From Lachnospiraceae bacterium (lineage in GTDB: Bacteria; Bacillota; Clostridia; Lachnospirales; Lachnospiraceae): a stretch of DNA of 64,000 nt. Positions 5,672-21,113 of the stretch are shown piece by piece. The translations under genes and the position numbers were made by a program. The notes under the pieces were generated by a model. The model was not told the origin of the DNA. It searched no databases and saw only the letters and a list, made by a program, of their open reading frames with translations. Location of the stretch: contig JAFQQI010000107.1 of assembly GCA_017411305.1 (NCBI GenBank), positions 186,001-250,000 on the forward strand, read 5' to 3'. Each line of letters begins with the position of its first letter. The stretch's first letter is position 1.

Positions 5672-6011
5672 ATGGAAAAAGAACCTTGGAGACTTGAAAA
5701 AGAACAAATGGTAAAAGATTTTCATGTATGGAATAAAAGTGCTAAGAAGGGACAAATCGTGTTTACCGGTTCCTCATTAATGGAAATGTTTCCGATTCAG
5801 GATTATTCGTACCAATGAAAAGATTAAAGCTGCTAATGAGCAGGTGAAAAAGATTGCCGAAAAGCATGGACAGAAGTATATTGATGTTAACGCGCCCCTT
5901 ACAGATGAACAGGGAAGATTGAAAGCCGAATATACAATTGAAGGTATGCATATCAAACCGGAAGGCTACAGAGCAATTTTTAATGATGTTATGAAATATG
6001 TAAATGAATAA
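5672..6011 (+). pseudogene. Remnant of an SGNH/GDSL hydrolase, internally deleted
   Basis: The first frame starts at ATG 5672 after an AGAGGG ribosome site and encodes MEKEPWRLEKEQMVKDFHVW then GQIVFTGSSLMEMFP. This is the N-terminus of an SGNH hydrolase with its catalytic-serine GSS block, and it stops at 5818. A second frame from about 5802 to 6011 encodes TNEKIKAANEQVKKIAEKHG and EGMHIKPEGYRAIFNDVMKY, the C-terminal His block of the same family. The middle of the enzyme (usually about 100 residues with the G and N blocks) is missing and the two halves are in different frames. This reads as a deletion pseudogene, not a functional short enzyme. Confidence 0.8.
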
Positions 6012-6023
6012 CTTATGTAAAGA

Positions 6024-6094
6024 ATGCAAAAGAATTTGTTCAAAAGCTTTATTCGCAATGAAGATGAGCCTTTGAACAATTCTTTTGCATTTTG
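6024..6094. terminator. Long bidirectional hairpin between convergent units
   Basis: ATGCAAAAGAA-TTTGTTCAAA pairs with TTTGAACAA-TTCTTTTGCAT across a 24-base loop, with a T run on the plus strand and an A run on the other side. It separates the hydrolase remnant from the convergent ABC permease gene. Confidence 0.65.
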
Positions 6095-6916
6095 TCATTT
6101 ATGTTTCAAATACCAATGCTCTGCACATTGTAAACACTGGTATAGTCCCATAGCAATGACGCATAAAATAATAATGGAAGTAATCACCATATTAAGCTGA
6201 AATACCTGAGAACCATAGATAATCAAATATCCCAGTCCACGTCTTGCGGCAAGAAATTCGCCGATAATAACTCCCACCAGTGCCAAACCGATATTGACTT
6301 TCATATTACTGAGAAGCAAAGGAACGGAAGAGGGAAGAATCACCTTACGAAATGCAGTAAAACGATTGCCACCTAATGTGATAATCAGTTTTAGTTTTTC
6401 TGCGTCTGCTTGTTTAAAACCTGTATATAGATTAATGATAGACCCAAAAACAGCGACAGAAACACCTGCGACTATAATGGTATCAGTTCCGGTTCCCAGC
6501 CATACAATGATAAGCGGCGCCAATGCGGATTTAGGTAAGCTGTTTAATACTACAAGGTAAGGCTCTACAATTTCAGAAAAAGTATTGGAATACCAAAGTA
6601 GCGTGGAGAACAACAGGCTAATGATAGTAATCAAAAAGAAGCTTGCTAGGGTTTCGAATAAGGTGATTCCGGTATGAACAAAAAAGGAGCCATCCAGAAT
6701 CATTTCAATAAAAAAGGTGACTACCAGAGTTGGGCTGCTGAAAAAGAAAGTGTCAATCCATTTCAGCCTGGCAGCAATTTCCCAAAGAAACAAAAACAGT
6801 AATAAAACGATAATCCGCATTACAGTTATAAAATAATGATGTCGCTTATGGTTTCTGACATATATTCTTTGCGCATTGGATATCTCCGTATTAGCGGTTT
6901 TCTGTATCATATTCAT
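6095..6916 (-). CDS. ABC transporter permease, NitT/TauT (SsuC) type
   Basis: This 273-residue polytopic membrane protein with about six helices carries the BPD_transp_1 cytoplasmic loop (EKLKLIITLGGNRFTAFRKVILPSS). It resembles the permeases for sulfonates, nitrate, taurine or thiamine precursors. An upstream in-frame start exists at 6967, but AAGGAG lies 7 bases before ATG 6916, which overlaps the end of the ATPase gene by 26 bases, so I use 6916. Substrate cannot be told from the sequence, and no substrate-binding protein gene lies beside it. Confidence 0.85.
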   Translation of the reverse strand: MNMIQKTANTEISNAQRIYVRNHKRHHYFITVMRIIVLLLFLFLWEIAARLKWIDTFFFSSPTLVVTFFIEMILDGSFFVHTGITLFETLASFFLITIISLLFSTLLWYSNTFSEIVEPYLVVLNSLPKSALAPLIIVWLGTGTDTIIVAGVSVAVFGSIINLYTGFKQADAEKLKLIITLGGNRFTAFRKVILPSSVPLLLSNMKVNIGLALVGVIIGEFLAARRGLGYLIIYGSQVFQLNMVITSIIILCVIAMGLYQCLQCAEHWYLKHK

Positions 6917-7664
6917 CAGATATCTCCTTCCATAAAACTGAAAAATAATTTGGAAATTCCGGTGCATTACGTGCTGCTAAAAGTGAATCATCAGCCAGAG
7001 TTAAAGTAATTGGCAATTCTTTTTTTATTGTAGCAGGACGTTTGCTTAAAATAAGGATTCTGTCAGAAAGTGCAATTGCTTCTGACAAATCATGAGTGAC
7101 AAGTATCGTTGTGATACCGGCCTTACGGATAATACGCCCGATATCAGCCGAAACCATAAGTCTGGTTTGATAATCCAATGCACTGAAAGGTTCATCCAAG
7201 AGAAGAATTTGCGGGTTTAGCATCATTGTCCTGATTAATGCAACACGTTGTTTCATCCCACCGGAAAGCTCTCCCGGTTTTTTGTCCTGAAAACGTGCTA
7301 ACCCATAATCATTAAGGAGAGTTAAGGCAAGTTTTTCGTTTTCCGGAGTAATCGTTTGATTGATTTCCGGTCCCAGCATAATATTTTGATAAATGGTGCG
7401 CCATTCCAATAAATGATCTTGCTGAAGCATATAACCGATTTTGGTATTTTCTGAACGGTCCAATGTAATGGTTCCTGATTCCGGCATGTTTAAGCCTGCT
7501 ATCAATGACAATAAAGTGGATTTTCCGCAACCACTGGGACCTACGATTGAAACAAATTCGCCTTTGGTGATTTGAAAAGATATATTGGTTAAAGCAGATG
7601 TCTCTCCTTTTAAATTGTGATAGGAGAAACATACATTTTGACATTGTAAAATTGGCTGTTTCAT
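6891..7664 (-). CDS. ABC transporter ATPase, NitT/TauT (SsuB) type
   Basis: This 257-residue nucleotide-binding subunit pairs with the overlapping permease. It shows Walker A GPSGCGKS, Q-loop MLQQDHLLEW, signature LSGGMKQRVA, Walker B ILLLDEPFSALD and switch His in LVTHDLSEA. AAAGGAG precedes its ATG. It is divergent from argH; the 145-base gap between the two start codons must hold both promoters. I see no riboswitch there, which weakens a thiamine-transport reading. Confidence 0.9.
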   Translation of the reverse strand: MKQPILQCQNVCFSYHNLKGETSALTNISFQITKGEFVSIVGPSGCGKSTLLSLIAGLNMPESGTITLDRSENTKIGYMLQQDHLLEWRTIYQNIMLGPEINQTITPENEKLALTLLNDYGLARFQDKKPGELSGGMKQRVALIRTMMLNPQILLLDEPFSALDYQTRLMVSADIGRIIRKAGITTILVTHDLSEAIALSDRILILSKRPATIKKELPITLTLADDSLLAARNAPEFPNYFSVLWKEISDEYDTENR

Positions 7665-18291: not shown

Positions 18292-18323
18292 GCGTTTTTA
18301 AAGCAGTTTTATTAAAAATAATA

Positions 18324-18374
18324 TTGGACACATCATATTAAGAATATATCGGTATGATGTGTTCAATTTTTTTG
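18324..18374 (+). terminator. Strong terminator of the GGGtGRT operon
   Basis: TTGGACACATCATA pairs with TATGATGTGTTCAA over 14 bp (one G-T pair) around a 15-base loop, followed by seven T. Confidence 0.88.
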
Positions 18375-18423
18375 TTCTAAAAAATAAGCACATGTCATTT
18401 GATGGACTATCGAAAAAGAAAAA

Positions 18424-18627
18424 TCACTTGATTTTTTCTTCAGTATAATCTTCCAGCATTATTAATACCATTTCGGTTATGTGATTGTTGCCAATCGCAA
18501 GTTGGAGCGTCATTTGGTCAGTCCAATTTTCATTTTGGGAAAAGTATTTTATCTGGTTTGTGACTGCCTGTAACCGTGTTAATTGGTCATCTGATAACAT
18601 GCATGTACATTCGATAGTATGGTTCAT
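18424..18627 (-). CDS. Small protein of unknown function
   Basis: This 67-residue protein (start MNHTIECTCMLSDDQLTRL) has a mainly helical pattern, no membrane segment and no recognised motif. The longer frame begins at a TTG (18654); I prefer ATG 18627, which has AAAGGA about 12 bases upstream. It is divergent from the XRE-type regulator across a palindromic 103-base gap, an arrangement typical of a self-regulated pair on accessory DNA. I cannot name a function. Confidence 0.5.
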   Translation of the reverse strand: MNHTIECTCMLSDDQLTRLQAVTNQIKYFSQNENWTDQMTLQLAIGNNHITEMVLIMLEDYTEEKIK

Positions 18628-18651
18628 AATTAAAGTAAATCCTTTCTTATG

Positions 18652-18690
18652 CAATAATATGGTACATATATGTACTCTTGTGCATTATTG
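18652..18690. promoter_or_regulatory. Palindromic operator between divergent small genes
   Basis: GTACATATATGTAC (18662-18675) is a perfect 14-base palindrome, flanked by CAATAAT (18652-18658) and ATTATTG (18684-18690) as an outer inverted repeat. A possible promoter for the right-hand gene is TTGTGC (18678) with GATAAT (18702) at 18-base spacing, so the palindrome would overlap or abut the -35 region. Confidence 0.55.
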
Positions 18691-18730
18691 TATTCCAAAT
18701 GGATAATAATATGCAAGAGGAAATATTATT

Positions 18731-18931
18731 ATGATTAGTTATGAACCTTTATGGGAAACAATGCGACAAAAGAATATTAGCCAATACAAATTAATGCAAA
18801 TGGGAATTGATAATAGGATGCTTGACGCATTACGACATAACAAGAATATTACTATGTTGTCATTAGAGAAGATTTGTGATGTATTGGAATGTTCTGCAAG
18901 TGATGTAGTGAAATTTGAGAAAGATAAGTAG
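18731..18931 (+). CDS. Small XRE/Cro-family transcriptional regulator
   Basis: The 66-residue single-domain helix-turn-helix protein has QYKLMQMGIDNRMLDALRHN as the HTH core and ITMLSLEKICDVLECSASDV as the trailing helices, like small Cro/CI (HTH_26) proteins. AGAGG lies 10 bases before the ATG. It probably binds the palindrome just upstream and may control itself, the divergent small gene, or the downstream ubiquitin gene; that last link is only positional. Confidence 0.8.
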   Translation: MISYEPLWETMRQKNISQYKLMQMGIDNRMLDALRHNKNITMLSLEKICDVLECSASDVVKFEKDK

Positions 18932-18988
18932 AAGCTGTGAAAAAGCGGCAAACTTATCTTTTTTCTTTTTTAGAAGGCTAAAAGGAAA

Positions 18989-19017
18989 TTGACAACAAAG
19001 GCAAACAGTATTATTAT
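18989..19017 (+). promoter_or_regulatory. Near-consensus housekeeping promoter for the ubiquitin gene
   Basis: TTGACA (18989-18994), 17-base spacer, TATTAT (19012-19017). The predicted start of transcription near 19024 gives an approximately 120-base leader before the ATG at 19145. Confidence 0.7.
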
Positions 19018-19043
19018 TGAACCTATAACATATAATTATGAAT

Positions 19044-19096
19044 GAAGTGATGGTCTCATCGTTGTGGGTAACAACCCCATAGTTGGTATGACTGTA
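19044..19096 (+). pseudogene. Fragment of a second GGGtGRT gene
   Basis: Aligned by hand to 18190-18243 of the intact GGGtGRT gene, about 44 of 54 columns match with one deleted base. Read in frame it gives [10 protein letters not shown] against GNNPMVGMTV in the intact gene. The match stops where the leader hairpin begins. It is the last trace of a paralogue, now lying in the ubiquitin gene leader. Confidence 0.7.
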
Positions 19097-19126
19097 GACA
19101 ACTCCTGGAAACAGGAGTTGTCTTTC
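19097..19126 (+). promoter_or_regulatory. Leader hairpin, terminator or attenuator-like
   Basis: GACAACTCCTG and CAGGAGTTGTC form a perfect 11-bp stem closed by a GAAA tetraloop, followed by TTTC. It lies between the promoter and the AGGAGG site (about 19129) of the ubiquitin gene. It could terminate transcripts early, stabilise the mRNA 5' end, or be the leftover terminator of the lost paralogue. Confidence 0.55.
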
Positions 19127-19144
19127 ATAGGAGGCAAGTTTTAC

Positions 19145-19882
19145 ATGAAAAAATATATACATTTATTAAAAAATATTACAGCCCTTGTGATAGCGTTCAT
19201 GATATTTATGACTATGTCTGTGGATGCATATGCGATGCAGATTTTTGTAAAAACATTAACAGGGAAAACAATTACTCTTGAGGTAGAGCCGAATGATTCT
19301 ATTGATGCTATCAAAGCCAAAATCCAGGAAAAAGAAGGGATTGCGCCGGATCAGCAGAGGCTTATTTTTGCAGGAAAGCAATTAGAAGAGGGGAAAACCT
19401 TAAGTGATTATAATATTCAGAAAGAGTCGACTTTGCATCTTGTATTGCAATTAAGAGGAGATGAGAATGCGGAAGAACCGGCTGCGCCGGATGAACAAGA
19501 ACATTCCGACTCAGAGGATTCGGATGATGATGACGATTACATTGAAGTGATACCGGAGCCTGTTTATGAAGAATCCAAAGAGGCAAAGGCGTATCGTAAA
19601 TTCAGCGAAGAAACCAAAAATCAAATTAGTGTTGCCGGACAGAATGCAATCATTACCATAGAAGCGGGAGATACCAGCTGTTTTACCGCAGGGATAATAC
19701 AAAAAATCAGTGAAAGGGCTGATTTGGAAGTTATCATTAATTTTACTTATCAAGGGGGACAATATACCATAGTAAAACCTGCCGGGCTTAGTCTTGATGT
19801 TATTTTAGAAGAAAAAGAATTCTATGGTCTTCTATATGTTAATGATAGAATAAATAAGTGGAAACTAGGCATGCTTGAATAG
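19145..19882 (+). CDS. Exported ubiquitin-domain protein (near-eukaryotic ubiquitin)
   Basis: The 245-residue preprotein has a signal peptide at residues 1-30 (two Lys, hydrophobic core, then A-Y-A), so cleavage would expose residue 31, exactly ubiquitin Met1. Residues 31-106 match canonical eukaryotic ubiquitin at 65 of 76 positions by hand alignment. Lys6, 11, 27, 29, 33, 48 and 63 and the Leu8-Ile44-Val70 patch are kept. Changes include Arg72 to Gln and Gly76 to Asp, so there is no diglycine end for conjugation. An acidic linker (about 107-150) and a C-terminal domain (about 151-245; [16 protein letters not shown]) follow, the latter unrecognised. The start has AGGAGG 10 bases upstream; the longer frame from 19064 is leader. 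Codons look like the host's. A secreted ubiquitin homologue is known from Bacteroides fragilis; this one looks closer to the eukaryotic sequence. No E1, E2, E3 or deubiquitinase gene is nearby. Confidence 0.93.
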
Positions 19883-19894
19883 GAGATGGAAAGT

Positions 19895-20995: not shown

Positions 20996-21079
20996 ATGAA
21001 AGCATATAAATTTTCCAAAGAGTTATATCTGTTACATACAATCAAAGGTGGTCACAAGGGCGGTCCCGGAGACAAGTAA
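20996..21079 (+). CDS. 27-residue peptide, glycine-rich C-terminus
   Basis: ATG 20996 stands 8 bases after GGAGGG and opens a frame of 27 codons: MKAYKFSKELYLLHTIKGG followed by HKGGPGDK. The first half is amphipathic; the second half is rich in Gly, Lys and His. The unit has its own promoter (20906-20934) and terminator (21114-21148), which argues for a real small gene. I do not recognise the family. It could be a signal peptide precursor, a peptide natural product precursor (no maturation gene nearby), or a small regulatory protein. Confidence 0.6.
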   Translation: MKAYKFSKELYLLHTIKGGHKGGPGDK

Positions 21080-21113
21080 CGGAATACGCAGGTATTCCAC
21101 CAAATCAAAGACT

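Follow-up and report, generated by a model that had tools for sequence, protein, structure and literature searches.

The window analysed here, a 64,000-nucleotide stretch of a contig from a Lachnospiraceae bacterium, contains on its forward strand a gene for a 245-residue protein, composed of a signal peptide ending in A-Y-A, a ubiquitin, an acidic linker and, at the C-terminus, a further domain of some 95 residues. The gene is preceded by a gene for a GGGtGRT protein and followed by a yvcK/CofD-like gene, which starts shortly past the ubiquitin stop. The features of the locus are the following:

18292..19894, + strand: stretch from the GGGtGRT gene to the yvcK-like gene; two genomes of the genus have both genes without a ubiquitin between them
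18989..19017, + strand: promoter-like TTGACA-17-TATTAT (11 of 12 matches)
19044..19095, + strand: incomplete second copy of the GGGtGRT gene's 3' end, lying shortly ahead of the ubiquitin gene
19096..19123, + strand: 12-bp hairpin with a GAAA loop, directly upstream of the ribosome site (fold of 19060-19160, z-score -3.68)
19129..19134, + strand: putative ribosome-binding site AGGAGG, with 10 bases from its end to the ATG
19145-19882, + strand: open reading frame of the ubiquitin gene, 245 residues
19145..19234, + strand: predicted signal peptide of 30 residues, called from the -3/-1 residues
19235..19462, + strand: ubiquitin domain of 76 residues, with R72Q and G76D
19463..19597, + strand: 45-residue linker rich in Asp and Glu (19 in total)
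19598..19879, + strand: C-terminal domain, a module also found in other proteins of the genus and genome
19880..19882, + strand: stop codon of the ubiquitin gene

The promoter-like site is weak evidence, since shuffled sequences have 13.2 such sites on average and the region has 19, and the hairpin, a terminator-like or leader structure, does not appear in the list of the terminator scan. The partial copy of the GGGtGRT 3' end is a trace of rearrangement. Further upstream, at 18731-18931, the window contains a small Cro/C1-type HTH gene (PF13443), and an open reading frame for a 27-residue peptide ending in KGGHKGGPGDK is located at 20997-21080, between the yvcK-like gene and a response-regulator/HD/GGDEF gene. 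Of 37 genomes of the genus, five have the yvcK-like gene, one of them being the window's own. In one of the others (L102), the same GGGtGRT gene lies upstream with 76 bases in between, and in a second (L101) the two genes are separated by about 750 bases, which hold a decayed remnant of the same small HTH gene; both are devoid of a ubiquitin at this site. A different gene lies upstream in L103, and L104 starts at the contig end. The ubiquitin family PF00240 is matched in just one of the 37 genomes, that of the window, which, together with the absence of the gene at the same site in two genomes, fits a moving accessory gene. Gain in this lineage is the simplest reading, with loss from the other 36 genomes as the alternative.

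An earlier note, made from the sequence of the window, had described the product as an exported, near-eukaryotic ubiquitin with an altered tail, and this description holds. Residues 31-106 are identical to human ubiquitin at 65 of 76 positions (86%), with S20N, T22S, E24D, N25A, V26I, D32E, P37A, D52E, R54K, R72Q and G76D as the 11 substitutions; all seven lysines are present, and Leu8, Ile44, His68 and Val70 are the same as in the human protein. A profile search of the full 245-residue protein, which the note had proposed as a check, finds ubiquitin similarity (PF00240, E = 2.1e-29, 101.5 bits against a cut-off of 25.4), and PDB polyubiquitins align with residues 31-105. In an AlphaFold2 model of the mature protein, which has a low overall confidence (57.6), mature residues 1-70 adopt a ubiquitin fold with mean pLDDT values per block of 71-87, and the ubiquitin part superimposes on solved ubiquitins with an rmsd of 1.0 Å over 75 columns for the best match. 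Gly75 is present, residue 76 is Asp, and 139 of the 215 residues of the mature protein, including a separate domain, come after it, so that the C-terminus of the ubiquitin is not free. A conjugated modifier requires Gly75-Gly76; with the tail altered and located inside the chain, E1-dependent conjugation is not expected, and the suggestion that conjugation is blocked agrees with the sequence.

The segment in front of the ubiquitin resembles a signal peptide, with A-Y-A at residues 28-30 and Met1 of the ubiquitin at residue 31, the placement that had been pointed out before. Cleavage right before Met1 is predicted from the residues at -3 and -1, and because all 72 filtered sequences of the family introduced below (window included) are built alike at this point. 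The residue before Met1 in these is Ala (67), Ser (3) or Gly (2), and residue -3 is Ala in 49, Val in 18, Leu in 2, Ile in 2 and Ser in 1. In a second set, obtained by profile searches, 17 of 18 near-eukaryotic ubiquitins have Ala before Met1, the exception (L132) being a sequence without a signal peptide. More divergent relatives, with 35 (L084) and 30 (L085) matches to human ubiquitin, have the Met placed after A-N-A or V-N-A, and one with 28 matches (L133) has no signal peptide.

The linker is disordered in the model (pLDDT < 50 at mature residues 73-117). In contrast, the C-terminal part modelled on its own (19571-19879, with 17 homologues) is a compact domain with a pLDDT of 89.9. The Pfam scan assigned no family to the window's copy of this module, and comparison of the model with PDB structures gave no confident match. 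The part after the ubiquitin is matched in 10 of 21 genomes, namely the window's own and nine of the same genus, and the own genome contains two further copies, one of them at a contig end. The matches sit at protein C-termini, and several of the proteins start with a signal-peptide-like segment. Among 67 C-terminal parts of exported ubiquitins, the module is found in that of the window only; since the genus uses it elsewhere, the species seems to have joined the ubiquitin to a module of its own genus.

Relatives were collected by a pattern scan of genome contigs, which gave 189 relatives among 282 candidate stretches, and the best 80 of the 189 were kept. Together with the window and three profile hits, 84 sequences were examined, of which 72, the window included, passed the filters. 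The 12 that were dropped comprise one with a broken frame (L011), one truncated (L034), one without a start by the rule used (L067), six in which no signal peptide was seen (L035, L047, L062, L065, L073 and L077), one with an archaeal pilin-type start (L059) and two divergent ones (L084 and L085); one step used 71 of the 72, leaving out L049, which is cut by a contig end. The identity of the 72 to human ubiquitin ranges from 53 to 75 of 76 positions. As a pattern-free check, 21 loci were taken from profile searches, each made on a genome sample counting the centre genome and with weak hits (L086, L087, L097, L098 and L099) omitted. Of these loci, 18 have at least 50 matches to human ubiquitin, and at least 9 of the 18 genes are also in the pattern set (window, L003, L028, L096, L048, L053, L026, L061 and L033).

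Exported ubiquitins are rare and widely scattered. Ubiquitin matches above the cut-off were found in 5 of 200 genomes of the window's own family (two divergent), in 4 of 398 of its phylum (two weak), in 7 of 150 of the family of a Methylotenera genome, in 8 of 147 of the family of a Dyella genome and in 3 of 393 of the order of a rumen Bacteroidales genome, with one match in each of 20 genomes searched through their loci (16 + 4). One rumen Clostridia metagenome-assembled genome (MAG; L006), outside these 20, has two adjoining exported ubiquitin genes, at 5968-6558 and 6555-7106. By record titles, the carriers belong to Bacillota, Pseudomonadota, Bacteroidota, Verrucomicrobiota, Planctomycetota, Actinomycetota and others; many of the records are MAGs and some labels are doubtful, such as that of a 'cyanobacterium' (L014) very like a Methylophilaceae record (L008). 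Carriers not marked as MAGs include Saccharibacillus, Cohnella, Dyella, Rhodoferax and Paracidovorax. Outside the filtered set, a MAG labelled Euryarchaeota (L059) has a ubiquitin within a protein with an archaeal pilin-like N-terminus, and a 15.7-kb IMG/VR contig (L154), which may be mislabelled bacterial DNA, encodes a signal peptide and a ubiquitin ending in Gly-Gly. Exported heads that resemble ubiquitin more distantly and have their Met similarly placed are encoded on a Pseudoalteromonas plasmid (L153) and in L084 and L085, one of them on a very long Ig-like protein, and four bacterial MAGs (L062, L065, L073 and L077) include eukaryotic-looking ubiquitins, e.g. a polyubiquitin, without a signal peptide.

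The tails are as varied as the carriers. The 67 C-terminal parts of more than 30 residues fall into 34 groups without a BLASTP link at 1e-5, the largest with 10 members, a count in which some parts are cut by contig ends and remote kinship between groups is possible. Pfam families in the 71 full proteins (first 25 of 44 families) include autotransporter barrels (14), IPTL-CTERM (4), fn3 (4), SLH (3) and T9SS sorting domains (2), and NCBIfam matches, counted at E values up to 0.01 and possibly looser than the curated cut-offs, place an LPXTG-type family in 5 and choice-of-anchor U in 4. A single head on many local tails is, as far as the sequences tell, the repeated theme of the family.

A tree of the ubiquitins (84 rows, 72 columns, rooted at the midpoint only, with 7 of 81 inner branches starred) places the window inside a set of 24 rows with a support of 98/90, made up of 22 Clostridia by our labelling, the window included, and two rumen Bacteroidales. 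Its nearest row is another Lachnospiraceae sequence (L003), with 96% identity over the 72 positions, and human ubiquitin falls outside the group. This phylogeny runs against the earlier idea of a capture from a eukaryote by this lineage and puts the window's sequence among those exported by gut bacteria; the family as a whole would probably go back to an earlier eukaryotic source. The window's group is part of a 25-row set that lacks four of the 27 Clostridia-group rows, and in other parts of the tree bacterial and eukaryotic-like rows are intermixed. With few resolved forks and such mixed rows, the tree does not establish a single origin of the family.

The ubiquitin codons of the family are mostly under purifying selection. 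Among 60 listed of 189 qualifying pairs, dN/dS is below 0.25 in 58, the exceptions being 0.65 and 0.34; the pairs are not independent, some repeat the same sequences, and the window gene itself is without a close relative among them. In several pairs, the rest of the protein is conserved as well as the ubiquitin. The full set of seven lysines is found in 49 of 72 filtered sequences and in 11 of 18 of the profile set, whereas the tail is far less constrained: the human residue is kept at R72 in 47 of 71, at R74 in 29 of 69, at G75 in 19 of 69 and at G76 in 2 of 69 filtered sequences. For tail residues 71-76, conservation is 0.44 in the filtered set and 0.59 in the profile set, against 0.91 and 0.88 for patch positions. 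The pattern set overstates conservation, being limited to the best 80 of 189 relatives and having two of its peptide patterns placed over ubiquitin residues 27-34 and 57-64. With general lists of the buried and binding-patch positions of ubiquitin, patch positions have no more than a slight advantage over other surface positions (permutation p of 0.03 for the pattern set and 0.26 for the profile set). On sequence grounds, conservation driven by a binding partner is suggested.

Exported ubiquitin is known already from Bacteroides fragilis; what is new here is the fusion to a genus module, in a group of gut bacteria. BfUbb (ubb) of this gut bacterium is secreted, starts at Met1 when mature, lacks Gly-Gly and varies in presence between strains (PMC3352274, PMC5705921); it inhibits the growth of 13 of 40 B. 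fragilis strains, whereas bovine ubiquitin is inactive in the same assay (PMC5705921), and it also binds human E1 in vitro and blocks the ubiquitination reaction of HeLa extract (PMC3352274). As in BfUbb, the predicted signal peptide of the window protein ends exactly before Met1, the terminal Gly-Gly is lost (Gly-Asp in the window), the gene is present in some strains only and the carrier is a gut-type bacterium. In contrast to BfUbb, a free 76-residue protein with a C-terminal Cys and 63% identity to human ubiquitin, the window protein is closer to the human sequence, has Asp76 and carries the linker and a second domain. The effector of the nematode Globodera rostochiensis is likewise a secreted ubiquitin with a C-terminal extension, but, as described in PMC5705921, it is eukaryotic, has an extension of 12 residues and acts in plant cells.

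The earlier statement that no system of this form is described in the lineage needs correction, as Ruminococcus albus 7 has, on its plasmid pRUMAL01, a gene built in the same way that is already annotated as 'ubiquitin family protein' (WP_013483628.1). Like the window protein, the product of this gene has a signal-peptide-like start, A-N-A before Met1, a ubiquitin and a C-terminal module that recurs in exported-looking neighbours, with 43% identity in one case. Unlike in the window, the plasmid is typed as mobilizable and the gene sits in a cluster for exported-looking proteins, and its C-terminal module has, judged by eye, no noticed resemblance to that of the window. In the corresponding region (L152, 989-7309), several exported-looking proteins have the C-terminal module of the ubiquitin protein, beside a dockerin protein. 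The exported ubiquitins of the family of the Dyella genome (L128, L130, L131 and L113, the last being the same as L048) also have a signal-peptide-like start that abuts Met1; in contrast to the window, they have no C-terminal module, end exactly at Gly75-Gly76 and are identical to human ubiquitin at up to 75 of 76 positions. Two related genes (L114 and L129) stop at Leu73. The literature searched gave no description of a family this broad, in which a single head is combined with many tails.

In the model that we propose, the protein would be exported by the Sec pathway and its signal peptide cleaved, giving a folded ubiquitin with a free Met1 outside the membrane, held via the flexible acidic linker to the genus-typical C-terminal module. 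Being non-conjugable, the ubiquitin would act as an extracellular ligand rather than a modifier, and the gene would have been gained horizontally from other gut bacteria and then fused to the domestic module. The displayed ubiquitin may bind and disable a protein of neighbouring bacterial cells, a bacterial target being a guess by analogy with BfUbb. The sequence itself, the family, the grouping, the patchy occurrence and the shared module are observed; we infer cleavage, presentation, ligand role and horizontal gain, and hold the reading as a whole, with neighbouring bacteria as the most likely victims, tentatively and at somewhat below an even chance. Antagonism is favoured because BfUbb, which has the same processing site and lacks Gly-Gly, inhibits B. 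fragilis strains; a near-eukaryotic ubiquitin need not be toxic, since BfUbb is only 63% identical to the human protein and ends at residue 76, and bovine ubiquitin is inactive (PMC5705921). Two further points count against antagonism: the tethering modules on many relatives, which would hold them to their own cell, and the closeness of the family to eukaryotic ubiquitin, as arms-race toxins usually diversify.

Action on eukaryotes, the kind of target that the earlier note had proposed, ranks second and is a close rival, if in itself rather unlikely: the ubiquitin would attach to receptors, or to proteins that recognise ubiquitin, on the side of protists or the animal host and serve as a decoy, an adhesin or a signal. 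The near-eukaryotic sequence held in bacteria, with its lysines and mostly low dN/dS, would be accounted for, many of the records are titled as samples from rumen, caecum, colon or rectum, where protists or host cells are common, and the effects of BfUbb on HeLa extract and human E1 point the same way (PMC3352274). This reading is at odds with the small difference between patch and other surface positions and with relatives in records named as methylotrophs and marine bacteria. The ubiquitin machinery of eukaryotes is, moreover, cytosolic. A structural cap, ranked third and improbable, would be a stable, fast-folding and protease-resistant N-terminal domain that aids export or shields the tail without a specific partner. 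One head on tails of 34 unlinked groups is what a general-purpose cap would give, and in the profile set patch positions are not clearly better kept than the rest of the surface; strict keeping of surface lysines and Met1 would be unneeded for a cap, and the rarity among genomes is left unexplained.

Two other explanations are far less credible. Recent direct transfer from a eukaryote or assembly contamination, without function, is very improbable and largely refuted. The high identity to human ubiquitin and the four eukaryotic-looking loci among 80 that are binned with bacteria (those in the MAGs named above) are set against a bacterial-type signal peptide and ribosome site, the grouping with gut-bacterial exported ubiquitins and the position in a 451-kb contig among bacterial genes, which makes eukaryotic contamination unlikely. 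The re-coding to host codon use proposed earlier applies to the ubiquitin part, with a codon adaptation of 0.742 within the range of 11 neighbouring genes (0.704-0.798), but not to the signal peptide (0.630) and the C-terminal part (0.673), which lie below it. A working conjugation modifier, released from its C-terminal extension, is just as remote a prospect: Gly75 is kept in the window, and four of seven Dyella-family sequences with at least 50 matches to human ubiquitin end at Gly75-Gly76, but G76D and R72Q in the window and G76 in just 2 of the 69 filtered sequences reaching that position argue against it; E2 (PF00179) is matched in 0 of 17 genomes, in a search that was blank in controls too and with the own genome 82.57% complete.

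Ubiquitin is taught as a eukaryotic intracellular tag, and the patchy distribution of exported ubiquitins on many tails suggests an overlooked use of it outside the cell. We consider it possible, at nearly an even chance, that several phyla share an unrecognised extracellular class, in which a near-eukaryotic ubiquitin with a free Met1 would be an interchangeable head, spread horizontally, joined to local surface or sorting modules and kept by selection for a widespread outside partner. If bacteria repeatedly place ubiquitin outside their cells, an extracellular ubiquitin-recognition system is still to be found. If true, BfUbb may be one case of a larger class of antibacterial proteins, or ubiquitin may be a language that bacteria share with protists or hosts. 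Since some carriers are named strains, Ruminococcus albus 7 and Dyella species among them, the question is within reach of experiments.
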